The position numbers and the translations under genes are program-made. A stretch of 64,000 nt of DNA from Natronomonas gomsonensis (GTDB lineage Archaea; Halobacteriota; Halobacteria; Halobacteriales; Haloarculaceae): NCBI RefSeq assembly GCF_024300825.1, contig NZ_CP101323.1:2480001-2544000 (forward strand). Reading direction: 5' to 3'. The notes beneath the pieces were generated by a model. It saw nothing but the letters and a program-made list of their open reading frames with translations, was not told the origin of the DNA and ran no database searches. Of this stretch, positions 27,072-38,980 are shown one piece after another (the stretch's first letter is position 1; each line of letters starts with the position of its first letter).

Positions 27072-27974
27072 TCACAGCCGCCGAGCGCCGAGTACCGCGA
27101 GCGCGATGGAGACGACGGCGACGGCACCGACGACCGCAAGTGGGTCAACTCCGAAGACGGTCGACGCCGACGGCGGGTCGCTGTTCGGTCCGCTCTCGGT
27201 TTCGGTCGGCGTCCGTGTGTCCTCGGGTGTGGCAGTGGCCGTTGGCTGCTCCGTCGCCGTCGGTTGTGCGGTGGCTGTGGTGGTCGGCTCCGGTGTCGGT
27301 GTGTCGGTCGGTTCGGGTGTTGCCGTCGGTTGTGGCGTCGGCTCCGGCGTCGGCGTCGGGTCCGACGGTGCCGGGCCGAGTTCCTGCCGTGCATCGTCGT
27401 CGCTCTCACAGCCCTCACAGAGCCCGAAGTAGTGTGACTGGTCGGTGAAACTGATGTTCCGACCGGTCGGAGATTTTCCCTCCACACGGACGGCGGATTG
27501 ATACCATCCCTCCGAATCGGCGTTCCCGACACAGCCCTCTAATTCGAGTTCCAATTTGTCGTCTTGACCGTACTCAGGTTGGTCTTCGGTGTCGAATCGG
27601 AATTGGACGGCACTTCCGTCCCACGTGGCACTTTGAACTTCGTAGGCTTGGAACTGGTAGCCGCTTTCCGTCGATTGGTTCACGCCGAGTCGGTAGTTAT
27701 CGCCCGTGATGTCGCCTTCGCACTCGTTGAGGTTCGCATCCGCTATCTGGAAGACGACCTCCTCCGGGTATTCGATGGTCGGCGAGCGGTCGACGGTATC
27801 GGTCAACTCCGCAGACAGGACGTAGGTCGTCCCGCTGGCACCGGGCGTACGGTCGCTCGGCGTCGTGGTGAAATCCGTCGGACTGCCACCGTGGTTGGCA
27901 CCGACGCCGGCGGGCAACAGCCAAAGGGAACACACGACGACGAGAAGGAGGGCAAGTGTCGATTCGTGCTTCAT
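27072..27974 (-). CDS. secreted four-cysteine protein with Thr/Pro stalk (divergent paralogue)
   Basis: A 300-aa protein with a Sec signal peptide (about 1-26), an ectodomain with four cysteines (C85, C148, C186, C189), a stalk rich in PTPTPEPT-type repeats (about 203-262) and a final membrane helix (about 276-297) ending in ARRL. The EGWYQSAVRV and CEGCESDDDARQELGP blocks align with PGWYQxQ and CDCDSxxEAxEQLGP of the four tandem proteins at 33.3-38.0 kb, so it is a distant member of that family. Unlike them it lacks a PGF motif. It lies just downstream of the ABC transporter genes, with its own AT-rich upstream box. Confidence 0.75.
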   Translation of the reverse strand: MKHESTLALLLVVVCSLWLLPAGVGANHGGSPTDFTTTPSDRTPGASGTTYVLSAELTDTVDRSPTIEYPEEVVFQIADANLNECEGDITGDNYRLGVNQSTESGYQFQAYEVQSATWDGSAVQFRFDTEDQPEYGQDDKLELELEGCVGNADSEGWYQSAVRVEGKSPTGRNISFTDQSHYFGLCEGCESDDDARQELGPAPSDPTPTPEPTPQPTATPEPTDTPTPEPTTTATAQPTATEQPTATATPEDTRTPTETESGPNSDPPSASTVFGVDPLAVVGAVAVVSIALAVLGARRL

Positions 27975-28061
27975 TAGCGTACTCTGTCAACGGAGCGAAT
28001 AAAACGTTTCGACAGTTGGTGGTTTATTCTTCGCCGCGATGTCTCGACCCCGAAGACGGAG

Positions 28062-28835
28062 TTACCCGCCGAGGTAGGACTCGCGGATGTAGTCGTCTCC
28101 TTTCAGCTCGCCGGGCGTCCCTTCACGGACTACGTCGCCGTTCTCCAGCAGGTAGATGCGGTCGGCGTGTTTCAGGGCAAACGTCACGTTCTGCTCGGTG
28201 AGCATGATGGTGACGCCCTGTTCTTGGATTGGGTCGAACGCCTCGGCGATGTCCTTCAGGATGACGGGCGCGAGGCCAAGCGTCGGCTCGTCGAGGATGA
28301 GCAGGTCCGGGTCGCCCATCAGCGCACGCCCGATGGCGAGCATCTGCTGTTCACCGCCGGACATCGAGCGAGCGTTCTGCTCGCGCCGTTCGTCGAGTCG
28401 CGGGAACAGGTCGTAGACGAACTCCTTGCGCTCTTCGATGACGGCGTCGTCCTGCAGGTAGCCGCCCAACTCGAGGTTGTCTTCGACGTCCATGTACCCG
28501 AAGAGGTCCCGCTTCTCGGTGCAGTGAATCATGCCTTGGTCGACCAGTGCGGTCTGACCGACATTCGAGACCTCTTGGTCCCGGTAGCGGACGCTGCCGT
28601 TGTACGGCAGGAACCCGGAGGCAGTGTTGGCGAAGGTAGTCTTGCCGGCACCGTTGGGACCGATGAGCGAGACGATTTCGCCCTCGCGAACGGTGAGGTC
28701 CAACCCGCGAAGCGCTTGGACCTTTCCGTAGGACACCGAGAGGTCTTCGGCCTCGAGTACCGCGTCGGGCGTCGGTTGGGTGTCCGTGGCGGGTTGGAAT
28801 TCGCTTTCGAAGTCGTCCGTGCTATCCGCACTCAT
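28062..28835 (-). CDS. HAAT-type ABC transporter ATPase, LivF-like
   Basis: A 257-aa ATP-binding protein. Walker A GPNGAGKTT (about 58-66), signature SMSGGEQQMLAIGRALM and Walker B LLILDEPTLGLAP can be seen. The sequence order and size match LivF/UrtE, one of the two ATPases in branched-chain amino acid or urea/amide transporters. Its ATG overlaps the stop of the upstream LivG-like gene (ATGA at 28832-28835). The substrate cannot be deduced from the ATPase. Confidence 0.88.
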   Translation of the reverse strand: MSADSTDDFESEFQPATDTQPTPDAVLEAEDLSVSYGKVQALRGLDLTVREGEIVSLIGPNGAGKTTFANTASGFLPYNGSVRYRDQEVSNVGQTALVDQGMIHCTEKRDLFGYMDVEDNLELGGYLQDDAVIEERKEFVYDLFPRLDERREQNARSMSGGEQQMLAIGRALMGDPDLLILDEPTLGLAPVILKDIAEAFDPIQEQGVTIMLTEQNVTFALKHADRIYLLENGDVVREGTPGELKGDDYIRESYLGG

Positions 28836-29620
28836 ATCTCATCACCACCCAGGTAAGCCTCTTGAACCTTCGGGTCGTTCTTGATTTCATCCGGGTCTCC
28901 CTCCGCGATTTTCGACCCAAACTGGATGACGAACGCGCGGTCGATGAGGTTCAGCAGGCCGCGCATGTTGTGGTCGACGACGATGAGCGTCATGCCGTGC
29001 TGTCGGAGCGACTCCATCACTTCCGAGAGTTCCTGAACCTCCTTCCCGGAGAGGCCGGCGAAGGGCTCGTCGACCAACATCACGTCCGGCTGGGTCGCGA
29101 TGGCCCGGCCTAACTCCAGTTTCAACATTCCGGCGTGTGGGAGTTCCGAGGGCGTCTGGTCGAGGACGTCACCCAACCCGACGCGCTTTGCGATTTCGGT
29201 GGCGAGGGCTTCGCTCTCGCCGCCGACGCCCGCGAGCGTGAACAGTTCGTCGGGTGCGAGTGCGAGTTCGATGTTCTTGACGACGGAGCGGTCCCCGAGG
29301 GGGGCGAACTCCTGGAACGTTCGCGCCATCCCCTTTTTGACCATCTCGTGGGCGGGGATGCCGGTCACGTCCTCGCCTTTGAAGTAGACGGTGCCGTCGG
29401 TCGGCGGGTACGTTCCCGTGACGGAGTTGAACGTCGTCGACTTCCCCGCGCCGTTCGGCCCGATGAAGCCGAGGATTTCGCCCTCCTGAACCGCAAAGGA
29501 GAGGTCGTCGACCGCCACGAGACCGCCGAACTCCTTGCGGAGGTCGTTGGCGACGAGGATGCCGTCGTCGGGGCCGTACGACCGGTCTTCGACGTCGGCT
29601 CGTTCGCTATCAGTGCTCAT
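28832..29620 (-). CDS. HAAT-type ABC transporter ATPase, LivG-like
   Basis: A 262-aa ATPase with Walker [10 protein letters not shown] (about 54-62) and Walker [14 protein letters not shown]. The signature loop reads [14 protein letters not shown], the degenerate form usual in LivG/UrtD. It pairs with the LivF-like protein. It overlaps its neighbours on both sides by four bases, so the four 3' genes are translationally coupled. Confidence 0.88.
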
Positions 29621-30843
29621 TTGTTATCACGTCCGATGATATCGTTGATTTCCTCGCGGTACTTCTGGATGGTACTTTGGACGGGTGAGTTCCCACCGGT
29701 CGGTTCCGGTTCGGGCACCTCCTCGCCGCGGTAGCGGGCGCGCATCCGACGACCGCGTCGAATCGCTTCGGGCACGACGCCGTCGGGGAGATACACCAAC
29801 ACCAGCATGGCGAGCAGGAACGTCGGAAGCGGGTCTAGTGCGGCGAACTCGATGCCGAGGACCGGAATCGTGAACGTGAGCGCATTGACGAGTTCGGTCG
29901 TCAGCGCGAACAGCAACGCGCCGGCGACTGCGCCCACGATGGTCCCCATGCCGCCGATAATCGCCATGATAATCACCTGAATGCTGAGGTCGATTCGACC
30001 GGGACCGAGCAGGTTTTCGGTGTTCGGGAAGCCGCCGGCATGGACGAACATCGCTCCGGCGAACCCACCGACTGCGCCTGCGAGGACGAACGCGAAGATT
30101 TTGAACTTCGCGGGATTGAGTCCCGAGGAGCGAACCGCGTTTTCGTCCTCACGAATCGCGGTGAACACCGTTCCGGCCGAAGAGCGGGTCACGGCGTAAC
30201 AGACCGCCAACACGAGGAGGAACGCGGCGAAGGCGGTGTAGTACCGCCCGAGCGCCCACGACATGTTGCCAGTCACCGTTATCAGGGCGTCCTGTGCGAA
30301 GCCGACGACCTGCGGTGGCTGGGTCGGCAGCCCACCGGTTCCACCGAGTCCCTGCGGGGCGAACAGCGGCAGACTCTCACTGAACAGGATGAACGTCTGA
30401 TACAGCAACAGCGGCGCGATGAGGGTGACAAGCGAGAGGTACGGCCCTTCGAGTCGCAGCGCGGGGATGCCGATGAGCAGTCCGCCGAGCGCCGCAACCA
30501 CCGTCGCGAGCACGATGCCGACGATGACGGGCAGGCCGTGCTGTGTCGTCACCACCGCGCTTCCGTAGCCGCCGATGGCGAAGAAGAACGCGTGACCGAA
30601 ACTGAGTTGGCCGGTGTAGCCGGAGACGACGTCCCAACTCATCGCGAACATCATGAAGAACAACACGGGCCGGAAGGCGTCGAGTTCTAACGGCGTCAGG
30701 AACGTGGGGAACAGCCCCAGCAGCACGACTCCGTACACGCCGATTCGGTGTCGCAACGCCAGTTCGCTGAACTGGAGTTTCTCTTTGACCGCCTCGCGGC
30801 GCCGTTCCTTGGTGTTGCCTTCGAAAGGTGTTTTCGTAGCCAT
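29617..30843 (-). CDS. HAAT-type ABC transporter permease, LivM-like
   Basis: A 408-aa integral membrane protein with about ten hydrophobic segments. The SYTGQLSFGHAFFFAIGGYG-like block near residues 94-112 and the cytoplasmic TAIREDENAVRSSGLNPAKFK coupling region (about 231-250) are LivM hallmarks. The N-terminal 35 residues and the C-terminal 40 are polar extensions. It forms the channel with the LivH-like protein. Confidence 0.88.
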   Translation of the reverse strand: MATKTPFEGNTKERRREAVKEKLQFSELALRHRIGVYGVVLLGLFPTFLTPLELDAFRPVLFFMMFAMSWDVVSGYTGQLSFGHAFFFAIGGYGSAVVTTQHGLPVIVGIVLATVVAALGGLLIGIPALRLEGPYLSLVTLIAPLLLYQTFILFSESLPLFAPQGLGGTGGLPTQPPQVVGFAQDALITVTGNMSWALGRYYTAFAAFLLVLAVCYAVTRSSAGTVFTAIREDENAVRSSGLNPAKFKIFAFVLAGAVGGFAGAMFVHAGGFPNTENLLGPGRIDLSIQVIIMAIIGGMGTIVGAVAGALLFALTTELVNALTFTIPVLGIEFAALDPLPTFLLAMLVLVYLPDGVVPEAIRRGRRMRARYRGEEVPEPEPTGGNSPVQSTIQKYREEINDIIGRDNK

Positions 30844-30845
30844 TG

Positions 30846-31645
30846 TTATTCTGCAGCCTCCCGTCCGAACAGTCCTTCGGGCTTCACGAGCAGGAACACG
30901 AGCAGCAGGACGAGCGAAGAGATGCCCGCGAGCTGTGAGCCGCCCGGTGCGAACGTGACCGTGAAGGTCTCGAAGAAGCCGATGATGTAGGCGCCGACGA
31001 CGCTACCCTTGATGGAACCGAGGCCACCCAAAATGACGATAGCGAACGACAGCACGAGCGGTGCCGGCGGTTCGATGGACATGAGCCACGACCCGCCGCC
31101 GAGGCTGCCGGCGAGCAACACGCCGGCGTACCCGGCGAAGGCGCCCGCCAGCACCCACGTAATCAGGTTGATGCGCTCGGAGTCGATGCCGACGAGCGAG
31201 GCGCCCTTGTCGCTCATGCTGACCGCGATGATGGCACGCCCCGTCCGCGTGTAGTTGACGAAGTAGAACAGCGCGCCGATGAGCAGCCACGACGTGGCGA
31301 AGATGAACACGTCGTTGGCGAAACTACTGAAGCCGATGACAGGGTCGACCGGGATGTTGAGCGGGTCGATATCGTCACCGGGCGCGTCCGAACGTAGCGG
31401 ATGACGCCCAGGTACGTCGCGCCGCCGATGGCGGCCCCGACGAGGGTACCGGCCAAGAGACCCACGAAGATGGGCAACCCGAAGTATCCTGAGGCGATGT
31501 ACGCGCTGAAGGCGCCGAGCGTGATGAACCCGCCGTGGGCGAAGTTCAGGATGCCACCGACGCCGAAGATGAGCGTAAAGCCGATGGCGATGACGGCGTA
31601 CAGTGCGCTGATGAACGCTGCTGAGAGTATCGTGTCGAGAACCAT
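30846..31645 (-). pseudogene. HAAT-type ABC transporter permease LivH-like, frameshifted
   Basis: Two overlapping reading frames make one LivH. The first (start 31645, MVLDTILSAAFIS) reads well through TYLGVIRYV. The continuation (SDAPGDDIDPLNIP, then a full set of LivH membrane segments to the stop at 30846) is in another frame. The span is 800 bases, one short of a multiple of three, so a single base is missing near 31388-31397. The rest is intact, so this is a very recent mutation, a sequencing error, or a programmed frameshift. The start overlaps the binding-protein stop (TAATG). Confidence 0.82.
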
Positions 31646-33099
31646 TAGTTATTCACCCATTCTGGAATCGTTTTGTCCGCGCTCTTGTTCTGTGGCGGTG
31701 CAAAGGAGTGCATTGTCCCGTAGTCTTCGCGGACCTCGGGGTCCATCTGCCACTGCTGGAAGACCGGGACGCCGGTCTCCTCGATGGAGGTCCACTGCGG
31801 TTCGTGAGCGTACGTCGCGTCCGCGGGCGTGAACTGGAACTCGCTGAGAACCGTACTCCCCGTGAACGTGCCGTCTTCGAGGTACGGAATCAGCGTGTTG
31901 CTGTCGGGAATCTCTTCGAGTCCCTCGCCCTCGACGGCCGCGGTAATCGCCTGCTCGGCGAGCGTAATCACGTCGTAGGTGAGCGCCCCGCTGTAGATGG
32001 GCACCGAGTCCCACTTCTCGCGGTAGGCCTCGACGAACGGCTGGGTCTGTTCGGTGTTCGAGGTCTGGGGCGTCATCGCGTTCATCGTGAACACGTGTTC
32101 GACGTTGCCGCCGGTGGACTCCCAGTAACTGAACGCCTGGCTGGGGACGTGGATGCCGCCGAACTCGAAATCCCGCTCTTGTTGGGCCCACTGGTTGACC
32201 GCAGTGGTGCCGATGAGTGCCATCCCGACGATGGCCACGTCGCAGTCGGTGTCCTCGATTTCGTTGAACAGCGGCGACCAGTCGCTGACGCCGCCCGGTC
32301 GTTCCGAAACGGGGACCTCGATGACGTCGCTGAGCCGCTCCTGAAGTCGGTTGGCGTACGGCGTGAACTCTCCGAGGTTCTCGGTCAGAAGTGCGGCCTT
32401 CTCCCAGCCGTACTCTTCTTTGTTGCTCTCGACGAACTCCAACATCGCATCGGCGAGGTCGAGCAAGTGCAGCGGTCCGGCGCGGAAGTGGTACTTGAAC
32501 CGCTCGTACTCGGATTCTCCGCCCTCTCCGGTGATGTCGTCGTTGGTCTTCGAAACCAGTTTGCCGGCGCGGGGGTCGGCCGAAGCGCTGGTGATGTGGA
32601 TGGTTTCCTGGTTGGCGATAGAAGGTAGCGTCTGCAGCAGCGCCGACCCGAGGAAGATGCCACAGGTCATATCGCAGTCCTCCTGCAGGACGAGCCGTCG
32701 GTGCTCCGATTGGGCCTTCCCCGGCGACACTTCGGTGTTACCGAGTTTGACGTTGACGTTGGCACCGAGGATGCCACCGTTGTTGTTCAGTTCCTCAGCC
32801 GCCTGTCGGGCGCCGTTCCACATCGACCGCCCGAGTGGGAGGTTCATCGGCGCGAGGACGCCGACGTTCAGTGTCTCTCCCGAGAGAACGCCGTCGCCTA
32901 CAGATTCGCCGTTGCCGTTTCCGGGTGGGGTTTTGTCGCCCTGTCCGCGGAACGGGAACCCGGGTGCGGGGTTCTCCGGCGACTGACAGCCGGCGAGACC
33001 GGCGGTCAGCGCGCCGGCCCCTCCGTACTTCAGAACCGAACGCCTGTCGAGGCGCCCGTCTTCTTCATCACTCTGTTCGTTAGCTGGCAGGTCTGCCAT
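31645..33099 (-). CDS. HAAT-type ABC transporter substrate-binding lipoprotein, LivK/UrtA-like
   Basis: Starting at the ATG at 33099 gives 484 aa. A twin-arginine signal (LDRRSVLKYGG) with lipobox TAGLAGC indicates Tat export and lipid anchoring. The mature part is a type I periplasmic-binding fold: NVGVLAPMNLPLG at the start, NNNGGILGANVNV, and GALTYDVITLAEQAI in the C-terminal lobe. The family binds branched-chain amino acids, urea, amides or aromatic acids; I cannot choose between them. A TATA-like TTAAATAT (33112-33119) lies just upstream, so the transporter has its own promoter downstream of the PGF-CTERM array. Confidence 0.85.
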   Translation of the reverse strand: MADLPANEQSDEEDGRLDRRSVLKYGGAGALTAGLAGCQSPENPAPGFPFRGQGDKTPPGNGNGESVGDGVLSGETLNVGVLAPMNLPLGRSMWNGARQAAEELNNNGGILGANVNVKLGNTEVSPGKAQSEHRRLVLQEDCDMTCGIFLGSALLQTLPSIANQETIHITSASADPRAGKLVSKTNDDITGEGGESEYERFKYHFRAGPLHLLDLADAMLEFVESNKEEYGWEKAALLTENLGEFTPYANRLQERLSDVIEVPVSERPGGVSDWSPLFNEIEDTDCDVAIVGMALIGTTAVNQWAQQERDFEFGGIHVPSQAFSYWESTGGNVEHVFTMNAMTPQTSNTEQTQPFVEAYREKWDSVPIYSGALTYDVITLAEQAITAAVEGEGLEEIPDSNTLIPYLEDGTFTGSTVLSEFQFTPADATYAHEPQWTSIEETGVPVFQQWQMDPEVREDYGTMHSFAPPQNKSADKTIPEWVNN

Positions 33100-33269
33100 G
33101 TGTGTCCTCAATATTTAACAGGTACAAATGTGTGTTGTGGTGGTGTTGTCCGGCCGTTTAAGGCGGATACGACGAATCGACGGTCCATTCATCAGGGACG
33201 AACTATCAGATTCGATAGAAATGGTCGGTGCAGACGGTGCATCCTCTCGACTGTTGATGCCGAGTGGCG

Positions 33270-34364
33270 CTACGTCCGCCGGTTCGTGAGCAGTGCGCTG
33301 GCGAGCAACGCGAAGACGGCGACCGCGGCGCCGAATCCGGGGCCGGAACCGGCTGTCGGCGTCATGCCAGTGTTGCTATTCCCGCCGTTGTCGCCACCGC
33401 CGCCGCCCGTGTTGCTGTCAGTCACCGTCGGCGCGGCGGTGTCCTCGGGAATGTCCGTGGGCTGTGGCGTATCCTCGGGCGTTGCGGTCGGTTGGGGTGT
33501 GTTCTCCGGCGTTTCGGTGGGTTCGGTGGTGGCGGTGTCGTCGGGTTCCGCCGTCGGCGTCGGTGTGGGTTCTGGGGTTGCGGTCGGTCCCGGCGTGGCG
33601 GTGTTTTTCGGCTCCTCTCCCGGCGGTGGGCCGAGTTGCTCTTCGGCTTCGGCGCGACTGTCACAGTCACAGACGTAGAGATAATTCGAATTCACCTTCA
33701 CGCCCGCGGTGCGTGCGCCCGACGACGGCTGTTCGTCGGGGCCGTTGTCGGCGACGGTGCCATTGAGAAAGCCCTGTATCTGATACCAACCGGGTTCGCT
33801 CGTCACCGTCAGGCAGGTGCCGTCCTGGGAGCCGGCGCCCTGTGCGGCGACGATGGCGTCCTCGGGAGCCATATACGGTGGGTCACCGGCGAAGTCGCTC
33901 CAATCGTAGAGATTGATGGTGATGCCGTCGTCCCGGAAATCGGTGTTCTTCTGTTTCTGGACAAGGTCCTCGTCGACTTGCGTACCGGGGTTGTCGCCAC
34001 CGCGGTCGATACCGAAGGCCTTCGTGTTCGGGATGTCGCAGGCGGAGTAGTCTATCCACTGGGCGTCGATGATGACGTAATCGAGGAAGATGCCCTCCTC
34101 GGCGTCGAGTTCCTCAAAGGCCTCCGCGCCCGAGGCGAAGTACTCGATGCTACCGTTTTCTTCGTTCTGGTCGCCGGGATAGTGGTCGGTCGCATACGGG
34201 AAGTTCACCGTGAGATTCGCCTGTCCGTCGAAGTTCGCTGCCTGGTCTTTGGTGTGTTCGTCCGCAGCTGCGGTGCCGGTTGCGACGGCGAGAACCGAAA
34301 CGCCCGCGAGCGCCCCCGCGATGACGAGGACTGCGAGCGACGTTGCACGTCTCTGTCTACCCAT
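33270..34364 (-). CDS. PGF-CTERM surface protein, tandem family copy 1
   Basis: A 364-aa secreted protein. A signal peptide covers about 1-34. The ectodomain (about 35-245) holds DHYPGDQN, WIDYSACD, FRDDGITI, PGWYQIQGF and YLYVCDCDS with cysteines at 109, 184, 232 and 234. A Thr/Pro/Glu stalk (about 252-315), a Gly/Asn linker and a C-terminal PGF motif (342-344), hydrophobic helix and NRRT tail follow. PGF-CTERM tails are recognised by archaeosortase A, which replaces the helix with a lipid anchor. The ectodomain family is not one I know. A TTATAAAC box lies about 60 bases upstream. Confidence 0.8.
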   Translation of the reverse strand: MGRQRRATSLAVLVIAGALAGVSVLAVATGTAAADEHTKDQAANFDGQANLTVNFPYATDHYPGDQNEENGSIEYFASGAEAFEELDAEEGIFLDYVIIDAQWIDYSACDIPNTKAFGIDRGGDNPGTQVDEDLVQKQKNTDFRDDGITINLYDWSDFAGDPPYMAPEDAIVAAQGAGSQDGTCLTVTSEPGWYQIQGFLNGTVADNGPDEQPSSGARTAGVKVNSNYLYVCDCDSRAEAEEQLGPPPGEEPKNTATPGPTATPEPTPTPTAEPDDTATTEPTETPENTPQPTATPEDTPQPTDIPEDTAAPTVTDSNTGGGGGDNGGNSNTGMTPTAGSGPGFGAAVAVFALLASALLTNRRT

Positions 34365-34487
34365 TCGTGGGAACGCTGTACCGACTTGACGCTAACCGTA
34401 TTGCAGGGTATTCGAGGCAGTTTATAACACTCGCCGGCTGTCTCCGTGGCTCGCCCTCGACGCGATAAAACGGATGTGGGCGTCGGG

Positions 34488-35594
34488 TTATCGTCGCCGA
34501 GTTGCCAGCAGTGCGCTGGCGAGGAGGGCGAGGATTGCGACGGCGGGTCCGAAGCCGGGGCCACCGCCGGAGGTCGGCGTCATGCCTGTGTTGCCGTTGC
34601 CACCGTTGCCGCCATTGTTACCGCCCCCGTTGTTGGGTTGAGTTGCGGTCGGTGCGGCGGTGTCCTCGGGCGGTTCGGTTGGTTCGGGGGTGTCTTCAGG
34701 GGGTTCGGTTGGTTCGGGGGTGTCCTCGGGGGGTTCAGTTGGCTGGGGGGTGTCGTCGGATGCTTCGGTCGGCGTCGGAGTCGGTTCCGGTGTCGCAGTG
34801 GGTTCGGGTGTGGACTCGGAGCCACTGTCGTCCTCGTTCGGCGGTGGGCCGAGTTGTTCGCGGGCCTCCTGTTCGCTGTCGCAGTCACAGACGTAGAGGT
34901 AGTTCGACTGCAGTCGGAGTCCCTTCTCCTCGGCGCTGTCGGAGGGTTCTTCGTCGGGGCCGTTGTCGGCGACGGTACCGTTGAGGAACGCCTGCAACTG
35001 ATACCACCCGGGTTCGCTCGTCATCGTCAGGCAGGTGCCGGCCTGCGAGCCAGCGCCCTGTGCGGCGACGACCTGGTCTTCGGGAGCCATGTACGGCGGG
35101 TCGCCCGCGAAGTCGCTGAAGTCGTAGAACTTGATTTCGATGCCGTCATCGAGGAAGTTCGTGTTCCGCTGTTTCTGGACGAGGTCCTCGTCGAACTGAG
35201 TGCCGGCCAAATTACTGTCTCGGTCGATGCCGAAGGCCTTCGTGTTCGGGATGTCGCAGGCGGAGTAGTCTATCCACTGGGCGTCGATGATGATGTAGTT
35301 GAACCAGACGCCCTCCTCGGCACCAACATCGTTGAACGCCTCCGAGCCGACGGCGTAGTACTCGATACTACCGTTCTGTTCGTTCTGGTCGCCGGGGTAG
35401 TGGTCCGTCGCGTACGGGAGATTGACCGTGAAGTTCGCGGCATCTGTCTTATCCGGTGCTTCGTCTCGCGTAACGCTGTCCTGTGCCGCAGCCGGCGCGG
35501 CGGCCGCGGCGAACAGCGTGACCCCGGTGACCATCGACGTAATCAACGCGATGGACAACAGGGTCGCAGTCCGTTGTCGGTTTGCGGGTCCCAT
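34488..35594 (-). CDS. PGF-CTERM surface protein, tandem family copy 2
   Basis: A 368-aa paralogue with the same plan: signal peptide ending near APAAAQD, four-cysteine ectodomain (DIPNTKAFGIDR, AQGAGSQAGTCLTM, YLYVCDCDSEQ), Glu/Pro/Thr stalk and the C-terminal tail GPGFGPAVAILALLASAL with terminal arginines. I use the ATG at 35594; a TTG nine bases upstream is possible. The stalk includes three 10-residue EDTPEPTEPP-type units encoded by 30-bp repeats. A TATATAAAC-like box is about 60 bases upstream, so it can be transcribed separately. Confidence 0.8.
   Translation of the reverse strand: MGPANRQRTATLLSIALITSMVTGVTLFAAAAAPAAAQDSVTRDEAPDKTDAANFTVNLPYATDHYPGDQNEQNGSIEYYAVGSEAFNDVGAEEGVWFNYIIIDAQWIDYSACDIPNTKAFGIDRDSNLAGTQFDEDLVQKQRNTNFLDDGIEIKFYDFSDFAGDPPYMAPEDQVVAAQGAGSQAGTCLTMTSEPGWYQLQAFLNGTVADNGPDEEPSDSAEEKGLRLQSNYLYVCDCDSEQEAREQLGPPPNEDDSGSESTPEPTATPEPTPTPTEASDDTPQPTEPPEDTPEPTEPPEDTPEPTEPPEDTAAPTATQPNNGGGNNGGNGGNGNTGMTPTSGGGPGFGPAVAILALLASALLATRRR
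34661..34750 (-). repeat. three tandem 30-bp in-frame repeats in the stalk
   Basis: Units at 34661-34690, 34691-34720 and 34721-34750 are nearly identical and encode a proline-rich decapeptide of the stalk of copy 2. High identity at the DNA level suggests recent slippage or recombination. Confidence 0.85.
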
Positions 35595-35713
35595 CGAAGG
35601 CAACGGCGGACAGTACTTTCTTATCCTTGGTGCCAGTCATATTCGGGTGTTTATATCACACACGGGGACGGTACACGAACAACTGAATAAACGGAAGAAA
35701 ACAGGTAGAGGGG

Positions 35714-36808
35714 TTATCGACGGCGATTAGCGAGGAGTGCGCTGGCGAGGAATGCGAGGATGGCGATGGCGGGGCCGAAGCCGGGACCACTACCGGAGGT
35801 TGGCGTCATACCGGTGCTTCCACCACCGGCGCTGTTGCCGCCACCGCCCCCACCGCCGTTGTTTGGTTGAGTCGCTGTGGGTGCGGTCGTCTCTTCGGGC
35901 GGGTCCGTTGGCTGTGGTGTATCGTCCGGTGGATCGGTCGGTTCGGGTGTGGATTCCGGCGGTTCGGTCGGCGTCGGCGTGTCGTCGGGCGCCTCCGTGG
36001 GAGTCGGTGTCGAGTCGCTGCTCTCCGTGGGTGTCGGCGTCGACTCGGGTTCCCCTCCCGGCGGCGGGCCGAGTTGCTCTTCGGCCTCGGCGCGGCTGTC
36101 ACACTCACAGACGTAGAGGTAATTCGAGTTGACGTTCACGCCGACGAACTCCTTGTTTTCCGGCTCACAGTCGGAGTTGCCCTCCTCTTTGCATCCGGTC
36201 GCGATGCTGCCGTTCGCGAACGCCTGAACGTTGTACCAGCCGGGTTCGTTGGTGACGGTGAGACACGGACCGGAGTTCGACCCGGCACCCTGTGCCGCGA
36301 CGATGGCGTCCTCCGGGGAGAGATACGGCGGGTCGTTCGCGAAGTCGTCCCAGTTGTACATCTCGATGGTGATGCCGTCGTCCCGGAAGTCCGTTCGAAT
36401 CTGGTGTTCGACGAGGTCCTCGTCGATGTTCGTCCCCGTGTTGTTGTTGCCACGGTCGATACCGAACGCCTTTGTGTTGTCCGTCGAACACGCGGAGTAG
36501 TCTATCCAGTCGGCGTCGACGATGACGTTGTCGACCCAGATACCTTCCTCTGCGCCCTGTTCAGTGAACGCTGCACCACCGGCGGCGAAGTACTCGATAC
36601 TTCCGTTTTCGGTGTTTTGGTCGCCGGGGTAGTGGTCCGTCGTGTACGGGAGGTTCACCGTGAAGTTCATCTCCTCGTCGAAGTTCGGCGCCTCGTCTTT
36701 GGTGTGTCCATCGGCAGCGACGGCGCCGGCGGTCGCACCGATTGCGACCATCGACACGACGACGAACGTCGCCAGCACCGTCGCGGCTGTCTGCCTTGCG
36801 CTGTGCAT
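35714..36808 (-). CDS. PGF-CTERM surface protein, tandem family copy 3
   Basis: A 364-aa paralogue. The ectodomain keeps DHYPGDQN, WIDYSACS, FRDDGITIEMY, EPGWYNVQAF and YLYVCECDS but contains an extra short insertion with two further cysteines (CKEEGNSDCEPENKE, about 205-220), giving six in the mature protein. It has a Pro/Thr stalk, a Gly/Asn-rich linker and the PGFGPAIAILAFLASAL tail with final RRR. A TTATAAAC box is about 55 bases upstream. The insertion might add a disulfide and alter ligand choice. Confidence 0.8.
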   Translation of the reverse strand: MHSARQTAATVLATFVVVSMVAIGATAGAVAADGHTKDEAPNFDEEMNFTVNLPYTTDHYPGDQNTENGSIEYFAAGGAAFTEQGAEEGIWVDNVIVDADWIDYSACSTDNTKAFGIDRGNNNTGTNIDEDLVEHQIRTDFRDDGITIEMYNWDDFANDPPYLSPEDAIVAAQGAGSNSGPCLTVTNEPGWYNVQAFANGSIATGCKEEGNSDCEPENKEFVGVNVNSNYLYVCECDSRAEAEEQLGPPPGGEPESTPTPTESSDSTPTPTEAPDDTPTPTEPPESTPEPTDPPDDTPQPTDPPEETTAPTATQPNNGGGGGGGNSAGGGSTGMTPTSGSGPGFGPAIAILAFLASALLANRRR

Positions 36809-36912
36809 GTAGGTACGACTGCAGAATCACCGCTCCTAACGCTGTTGCTGGCTATTCGCTGGGGTTTATAATTATTGTTAATGTCCGGTAGAAACCGGAA
36901 AACGGGGGGTGT

Positions 36913-38004
36913 TTATCTGCGCCGGATGGCGGCGAGGGCGCTGGCGAGCAACGCGAGGACAGCGACGGCGGGGCCGAATCCGGGGCCTTCGCCGGCGGTC
37001 GGCGTCATGCCCGTCGAGTCGTCGTCCGACTGCGCCTCGGTGTTCTGGGGCGCGTCGGTCGACTGTGCCGTGTCCGCGGGTGCGTCGGTCGGTTCGGGGG
37101 TCTCCTCGGAGTCCGAGGTGTCGGGCGTTGCAGCCGGTTCGGGCGTCGCGGTCGGCTCCGGTGTCGCCGTCGATTCGGACGTGTCCTCGGGTGTCGGAGT
37201 CGGTTCGGGCGTCGCGGTCGGCTCCGGCGTGGCGGTGGACTGGGTGTCCTCGTTCGGCGGCGGGCCGAGTTGTTCGCGGGCCTCCTGTTCGCTGTCGCAG
37301 TCACAGACGTAGAGGTAATTCGAGTTCAGTTTGAAGCCGACTTCTTCGGCGCTGTCGGAGGGTTCTTCGTCGGGGCCGTTGTCGGCGACGGTGCCGTTGA
37401 TGAACCCTTGGACCTGATACCAGCCGGGTTCGCTCGTCATCGTCAGGCAGGTACCGGCCTGCGAGCCAGCGCCCTGTGCGGCGACGATGGCGTCTTCGGG
37501 GGCCATGTACGCCGGGTCACCGGCGAAGTCGCTGAAGTCGTAAATCTCGATGGTGATGCCGTCGTCCCGGAAGTCGACGTTCTTCTGTTTCTGGACGAGG
37601 TCGACGTCGGTCTGGGTTCCGTCGTTGTTGTTGCCACGGTCGATACCGAAGGCCTTCGTGTTCGAGACGTCGCAGTTGGAGTAATCTATCCACTGGGCGT
37701 CGATGATGACGTAGTCGACCCACAGCCCCTCCTCCGCTCCGACTTCGCCGAAGGCGTCGCCGCCGGCGGCGTAGTACTCGATGCTACCGTTGGCTTCGTT
37801 CTGGTCGCCTGGGTAGTGGTCCGTCGAGTACGGCAACACGACCTCGAAGTCGGCCTGCTCGGTGAGGTCTTCGGCTTCGTCTTTCGTGTGGTCGCTCGCA
37901 GCGGCCGGCGCGACGGCAGCGCCGAATAGCACGACGCTCCCGACCATCGTCGCGACGACCGCGATGGAGAGCAACGTCGCACTCAGTTGTCGTGTCTGAC
38001 TCAT
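36913..38004 (-). CDS. PGF-CTERM surface protein, tandem family copy 4
   Basis: A 363-aa paralogue, starting at the ATG at 38004 (MSQTRQLSATLLS) because the signal peptide begins there and a CTTATATC box lies about 40 bases upstream. Ectodomain blocks are DHYPGDQN, WIDYSNCD, FRDDGITIEIY, PGWYQVQGF and YLYVCDCDSEQ. The stalk mixes TPEPT repeats with Ser/Asp, and the tail is GPGFGPAVAVLALLASAL plus RRR. It is first in transcription order of the four tandem genes, all on the minus strand and leading towards the ABC transporter. Confidence 0.8.
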   Translation of the reverse strand: MSQTRQLSATLLSIAVVATMVGSVVLFGAAVAPAAASDHTKDEAEDLTEQADFEVVLPYSTDHYPGDQNEANGSIEYYAAGGDAFGEVGAEEGLWVDYVIIDAQWIDYSNCDVSNTKAFGIDRGNNNDGTQTDVDLVQKQKNVDFRDDGITIEIYDFSDFAGDPAYMAPEDAIVAAQGAGSQAGTCLTMTSEPGWYQVQGFINGTVADNGPDEEPSDSAEEVGFKLNSNYLYVCDCDSEQEAREQLGPPPNEDTQSTATPEPTATPEPTPTPEDTSESTATPEPTATPEPAATPDTSDSEETPEPTDAPADTAQSTDAPQNTEAQSDDDSTGMTPTAGEGPGFGPAVAVLALLASALAAIRRR

Positions 38005-38185: not shown

Positions 38186-38980
38186 ATGCAACGACGATGG
38201 GCGGCGATATACATCGCCTTCTTCCTCGTCATGGCCGCCAGCTCCTATTCGGTGATGGCGGTGGCCGAGGAACCGACTATCGATGTCGAAGGGGACACCT
38301 TCCAGCAGGGAGACACCGTCGAATTCGGCGGCACGACGTACACGTTCACCGAAGTGTCGAACGGGAGTGCGACCGCCGAATACAGCCAAACGAGCCAAGG
38401 ACAGACGACGTTCGCCAACAACTCCGTCGTCGAGTACGACGGTGGGCAGTACAACGTCACGACAGCCGCGGGCGAGCAGTCGTTCACGCTCGTCCAAGAG
38501 TTCGACGTGCCGACGCTGCTCGAAAACGACCCCGAGGTGGACAACAGTACCTACACGGGCGACGACGGCACCGAGTTCGTTCGCTACCGCAACGGGACGA
38601 CCCAACCGGTCGATGAGTACCTCCCCGAACCGGACCGTGAGAGCTTCGCCGTCGGCGACGCGATAGAACACGCAAACACCTCGAAAACCGTCGACAACGT
38701 CACCGCCTCGGAGGCGGTCTTGACGTGGGAAGAAACGACCACGCAGTCGATTGGGTTCGCCGAGGGCGACACCACGGAACTCGGCGGAACGCAGTACGTC
38801 TCGACGTTCGACGGCGGTGACACGCTCGTGTTGTCGACCGACGTCGAGGGGTATCAGGCCGGACTCGACAACCAGGACTACTTCCAAGAGCGTATGTCGA
38901 GTCTCATGTACATCATCGTCTACTGTTTCGGTGCCGCGTTCCTCCTCGGTGCAGTCGCGTTCCTCCCCCACCGCGGCTAA
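38186..38980 (+). CDS. membrane-anchored extracellular beta-rich protein, function unknown
   Basis: A 264-aa protein with an N-terminal hydrophobic segment (about 8-27), a large polar part (about 28-235) and a C-terminal membrane helix (about 240-260) ending PHRG. The polar part has two similar modules starting near GDTVEFGGTTYTF (residue 42) and GDTTELGGTQYVSTF (near 195), suggesting an internal repeat of a small beta domain. No catalytic motif is seen. It is divergent from the PGF-CTERM array. Confidence 0.65.
   Translation: MQRRWAAIYIAFFLVMAASSYSVMAVAEEPTIDVEGDTFQQGDTVEFGGTTYTFTEVSNGSATAEYSQTSQGQTTFANNSVVEYDGGQYNVTTAAGEQSFTLVQEFDVPTLLENDPEVDNSTYTGDDGTEFVRYRNGTTQPVDEYLPEPDRESFAVGDAIEHANTSKTVDNVTASEAVLTWEETTTQSIGFAEGDTTELGGTQYVSTFDGGDTLVLSTDVEGYQAGLDNQDYFQERMSSLMYIIVYCFGAAFLLGAVAFLPHRG

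Follow-up and report, generated by a model that had tools for sequence, protein, structure and literature searches.

How poorly soluble or large substrates are brought to ABC importers in archaea that carry an S-layer and lack an outer membrane is largely unknown. A locus of Natronomonas gomsonensis poses the question in a concrete form. Within the 64-kb stretch of DNA that was analysed (the window), a family of related surface proteins flanks an importer of the HAAT (Liv) type, and the original prediction was that these proteins capture a ligand for the transporter, present it or sense it. The family, comprising four tandem paralogues and a fifth protein, is given the working name SURF. The best reading of the evidence is that the SURF proteins are lineage-restricted surface binders, predicted to be lipid-anchored, and that one branch of them would serve Liv importers. 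A surface family repeatedly and specifically tied to one importer class is a concrete genetic handle on uptake, and an unnamed ectodomain family is added to the archaeosortase substrates.

The open reading frames and coordinates first proposed for the locus were borne out, as was the placement of the SURF copies, the Liv genes and the fifth protein on a single strand. Read along the minus strand from position 38004 to 27072, the order is SURF copy 4 (36913–38004), copy 3 (35714–36808), copy 2 (34488–35594) and copy 1 (33270–34364), the LivJ-type substrate-binding lipoprotein (31645–33099), the permeases LivH (30846–31645) and LivM (29617–30843), the ATPases LivG (28832–29620) and LivF (28062–28835), and the fifth SURF-family protein, P0005 (27072–27974). 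LivJ has a Tat signal and a lipobox and matches Peripla_BP_6 at 91.6 bits against a cut-off of 31.7. Together with LivM, LivG and LivF, this confirms the pairing of surface proteins with a HAAT-type transporter set. The gene set is that of a HAAT/Liv importer (a Peripla_BP_6 lipoprotein, two permeases and two ATPases), with LivH intact in relatives and broken in the 64-kb window. On the plus strand, the block is adjoined by dn1 (38186–38980), a membrane protein gene without a Pfam or NCBIfam match.

Two close relatives, Natronomonas sp. CBA1123 (L038) and N. gomsonensis YCN60 (L039), served for comparison. The LivH gene of the window is a remnant from which 73 internal base pairs, present in both relatives, are missing, and its frame is broken. 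This lesion is either a recent loss of the importer in this strain or an assembly error; unless it is the latter, the importer is probably disabled here. Copies 1, 2 and 3 each have their own TATAAAC box on the minus strand (34420–34427, 35649–35656 and 36864–36871, respectively), lying 61–62 nt before the start codon, and the orthologues are alike. These boxes argue for separate transcription units, and the 11 kb are probably not one operon.

The four tandem paralogues have in common a signal peptide, an ectodomain of approximately 200 residues, a Thr/Pro stalk and a PGF-CTERM tail, as had been predicted. The full-length identity of the tandem copies to copy 1 is 65–69%, and the PGF-CTERM tails of all four pass the NCBIfam cut-off of 24.5 bits (28.5, 38.3, 30.1 and 29.4 bits). 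The four-cysteine layout described for them stands for copies 1, 2 and 4 and fails for copy 3, the ectodomain of which has six; four cysteines are found in 100 of 111 ectodomains examined. Among the sequence blocks described as near-invariant, FRDDGITI does not hold for copy 2, which reads FLDDGIEI. The invariant or nearly invariant columns among 67 diverse members include all four cysteines, GWY, the LGPPP end and the glycine of FGIDRG.

The fifth protein, a marginal match to copy 1 by BLASTP (E = 0.005), proved to be the true relative it had been taken for, as a profile built from the other subfamilies alone matches the entire ectodomain at E ~1e-20. It has four cysteines, a Thr/Pro stalk and, in place of PGF-CTERM (to which no match was found in this protein), a conserved C-terminal membrane anchor. 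The subtype to which it belongs, P5, forms one clade in the tree with full support. The tail conserved in the fifth protein and its relatives, FGxDPLxVVG...GARRL, looks like a tripartite sorting signal that lacks the PGF motif.

In Haloferax volcanii, PGF-CTERM proteins are known to undergo cleavage and lipid attachment (PMC7157517). Two genes exceed the cut-off for archaeosortase A (TIGR04125) in every one of ten genomes. Judged from sequence, the SURF copies are archaeosortase A substrates and are predicted to be lipid-anchored. The two archaeosortase genes lie approximately 1–3 kb apart in every SURF-positive genome examined (ten genomes), and the pair is found within approximately 5–15 kb of a stand-alone SURF gene in G118, G066, G067 and G047, among others. 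The copies of this strain are one-to-one orthologous to those of L038 and L039, with dN/dS of 0.10–0.18, from which it follows that each copy has been kept. Two further gene structures were noted. At L076:7264-9000, a single SURF chain with two tandem ectodomains adjoins LivJHM. A stand-alone paralogue of the present genome is split over two reading frames (L043:9462-11117 and L043:10084-10614; G000:C1:3226135-3227096), and its orthologous matches at L062, L066 and L071 occupy one frame each.

The ectodomain had been described as an unrecognised family, and it remains without an accepted sequence match in Pfam, NCBIfam or the PDB. A Pfam scan of 67 ectodomains gave no accepted match (best E 0.0046, in single members), a PDB profile search was empty up to E = 10, and no account of the family turned up in literature searches. 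A viral fold search returned no usable result. As a first AlphaFold model (pLDDT 62.7) was too weak, a second construct was taken; the model of a Haloglomus member (pLDDT 72.4, pTM 0.72) is an Ig-like beta sandwich. The closest solved structures are TTHA1873 (Z 10.2, rmsd 3.5 over 142 residues), UafA (Z 9.6) and ClfA (Z 9.0), each with 10% identity or less to the model. The model suggests, with moderate confidence, an Ig-like ectodomain resembling those of bacterial adhesins, a statement about fold and not function. NEAT, SusD-like and other known transport-relay domains are absent from the fold-search lists, an absence that proves nothing.

The fold matches bring in the strongest rival to a receptor model, namely adhesion without hand-over. 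The SURF proteins would then be general Ig-fold adhesins or surface-coat proteins, some of them sticking to particles, droplets or other cells, and the linkage to the importer would reflect co-regulation, the cell first attaching to its food and then importing it. Besides TTHA1873, the top matches are adhesins and pilins, SdrC and SdrD among them (Z 8–9.6), as this explanation would have it, and an Ig fold is just as common among adhesins, which counts against the receptor model. The distant relatives and the deep branches of the family also speak for adhesion. Close SURF relatives are restricted to four genera (Natronomonas, Haloglomus, g9 and g21) among 392 genomes from 95 genera of the order; elsewhere in the order, distant surface proteins lacking the cysteines score 30–47 bits and share the GIDRGND segment, and these are ordinary haloarchaeal surface proteins. 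Most deep branches of the SURF tree, the deepest included, consist of stand-alone genes, and the Liv-linked types are nested groups; the domain is thus older and broader than its link to the transporter. Adhesion is a possibility to be taken seriously, if less likely than a receptor role. Taken alone, it leaves unexplained why every array of three or more SURF copies adjoins Liv genes, a pattern that recurs with different LivJ types.

The case for a functional tie rests on this linkage. LivJ relatives and SURF genes were mapped against each other in ten genomes totalling 39.7 Mb, with 48 LivJ matches and 47 SURF regions, and the neighbourhoods were read out over 20 kb. LivJ falls within the 20 kb in 16 of the 47 regions against approximately 1.1 expected (Poisson ~2e-13); since the regions are not independent, the number of arrangement types weighs more than the count. 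Four types are distinguished. The first, SURF(2-5)-LivJHMGF-SURF on one strand, is that of Natronomonas. In the second, found in g6, g9 and g21, one to five SURF genes are divergent from LivJHMGF, and in the third SURF is convergent with a LivJHMG set that has a second LivJ type (L074, L077-L080). Single SURF-Liv cases (L076, L059 and L137) make up the fourth. The SURF-linked loci comprise at least three distinct LivJ types in several geometries, and the proposed physical tie between the ectodomain and HAAT-type importers recurs well beyond this locus.

This tie is not exclusive. On the question of whether homologues lie mostly away from ABC transporter genes, the answer is divided: a gene count over the ten genomes puts approximately 60% of SURF at Liv loci, whereas a count of loci puts only about a third there. 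The remaining two thirds or so of the loci have no nearby Liv gene, so the domain is not exclusively part of a transporter. Conversely, Liv operons without SURF are found at L044, L131-L135 and L140. Both observations count against a receptor role.

Many single SURF copies adjoin HTH_10 regulators, FecCD importers, ABC-2 exporters or acyl-CoA genes. Regulators that combine HVO_0513_N with HTH_10 directly adjoin stand-alone SURF genes in several non-orthologous contexts (L042, L063, L067, L072, L081-L083, L085-L087, L089, L092, L094, L096 and L100). Such neighbours are what would be expected if the surface proteins formed a sensory arm, reporting a ligand or the state of the envelope and driving the linked importer with HTH_10 proteins as partners. 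This is very unlikely, as PGF-CTERM tails leave no cytoplasmic part for signalling and HTH_10 genes were not seen at the main Liv-linked arrays.

In all four genera, the gene dn1 lies next to the SURF-Liv block. It was considered as a specific SURF partner and ruled out, since 110 of the 146 family genomes carry it and its linkage is local. Within Natronomonas, dn1 is found in exactly the ten genomes that carry the SURF-Liv block. In the SURF-free genus g7, dn1 has the same flank as in g9 (c130-c17-c131-c21-c25) and the block is absent. In G084, an orphan LivF (371 bits; L129:8833-10590) directly abuts dn1, which is what deletion of the rest of the block, from LivG to SURF, would leave. The SURF-Liv block is therefore gained and lost as a whole beside dn1. 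This behaviour would also follow if SURF and Liv merely shared a mobile or recombination-prone block and had unrelated functions, an explanation helped by the orthology of regions within a lineage, through which the counts overstate the number of independent events. Neighbourhood by descent is nonetheless unlikely, given that the linkage spans at least three LivJ types and several geometries.

The reading preferred here, although held tentatively and at somewhat less than even confidence, is that the SURF proteins are archaeosortase-anchored, stalked Ig-fold proteins, one branch of which is tied to Liv/HAAT importers as an accessory receptor set. It draws on the frequency and varied geometry of LivJ linkage, on the confinement of the larger arrays to Liv loci, on the gain and loss of the block as a unit, on the constraint on the copies, on the PGF-CTERM tails with their archaeosortase A genes, and on the resemblance of the predicted fold to ligand-binding adhesin domains. 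The copies would be held out through the S-layer on their Thr/Pro stalks, where they may bind a substrate or raise its local concentration. They would hand it to the membrane-tethered LivJ lipoprotein, which would in turn deliver it to LivHM/GF. Several tandem copies could provide a wider range of ligands or a higher binding capacity. Two features of the window speak against such an accessory receptor set. The frame of LivH is broken while copies 1–4 look intact, and copies 1–3 have TATA boxes of their own and may be expressed apart from LivJHMGF.

Which substrate an accessory receptor set would collect is a further matter. The original prediction implied nitrogen sources, and this finds no support, as LivJ, LivF and LivG all fall short of the cut-offs of the branched-chain amino acid and urea models. 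LivJ scores 24.3 bits or less against the NCBIfam LivJ/UrtA equivalogs, for which approximately 477–495 are required; LivF reaches 234.6 of 441 bits and LivG 184.7 of 362. As phmmer detected no relative of LivJ in the PDB at E <= 0.001, the substrate could not be read off. Other hints come from neighbouring genes. A short-chain dehydrogenase, an enoyl-CoA hydratase, R2lox, an acyl-CoA dehydrogenase and a hydrolase share an operon-like run with the second Liv type. Genes with an SCP2 domain lie close to SURF in three genera, with one genome in each; two genera have a phasin-like gene there, and acyl-CoA dehydrogenases are enriched only about twofold near SURF; the R2lox and SCP2 evidence comes from three or four regions each. 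Binding of a fatty acid is described for R2lox proteins (PMC6399176), one of which has been reported to oxidize alkanes (PMC10867098). These neighbours point weakly to acyl-CoA and lipid metabolism, with a lipid-like substrate as a lead only.

Wax synthase in the Haloarculaceae has been reported mainly from Natronomonas, Haloglomus, Halorarius and Halovenus (PMC11948995). Of the SURF-positive genomes, 17 of 18 carry it, as do 9 of 128 others. The RpoB tree groups all SURF genera in a single clade; this association is thus confounded by shared ancestry and its Fisher value inflated; wax synthase and SURF are absent together in three sublineages, and two genomes are discordant (G121 and G122). 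A bolder proposal sees in the SURF-Liv block an archaeal system dedicated to the uptake of hydrophobic substrates (alkanes, long-chain fatty acids or waxes). The anchored Ig-fold proteins would bind lipid at the surface of the S-layer and hand it on to the Liv importer, which would feed acyl-CoA metabolism and wax-ester storage. As a whole, this chain of steps is rather improbable.

Among known systems, the SURF proteins are closest in their anchoring to the PGF-CTERM/archaeosortase A substrates (TIGR04126, PF18204), such as the haloarchaeal S-layer glycoprotein, with which they share the PGF motif, a hydrophobic stretch, a basic tail and a Thr-rich stalk. The SURF ectodomain is unrelated to them by sequence, and the S-layer glycoprotein models TIGR04216 and NF041335 match the SURF tail only (10.5–24.7 bits against cut-offs of 400 and 1100). 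The substrate-binding protein of TIGR04281 is likewise PGF-CTERM-anchored and transporter-linked; its model also matches SURF in the tail only, at 17.2–22.9 bits against a whole-protein cut-off of 325. The importer matches HAAT-type (Liv/Urt) ABC importers in the set and order of its genes LivJ, H, M, G and F. It differs in that its proteins stay below the cut-offs of the curated branched-chain amino acid and urea models, and in the anchored Ig-fold proteins at its locus.

In the NEAT haem relay of the staphylococcal Isd system, several anchored surface binders stand beside a binding-protein-dependent ABC importer. The SURF-Liv layout is similar by analogy only, the PDB search having found no sequence relation. 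With adhesins and pilins of the MSCRAMM type (UafA, ClfA and SdrD), SURF shares a predicted beta sandwich and a stalked, anchored display. It differs from them in its 5–12% identity, its four conserved cysteines, its anchoring by archaeosortase instead of sortase, and its linkage to an importer.
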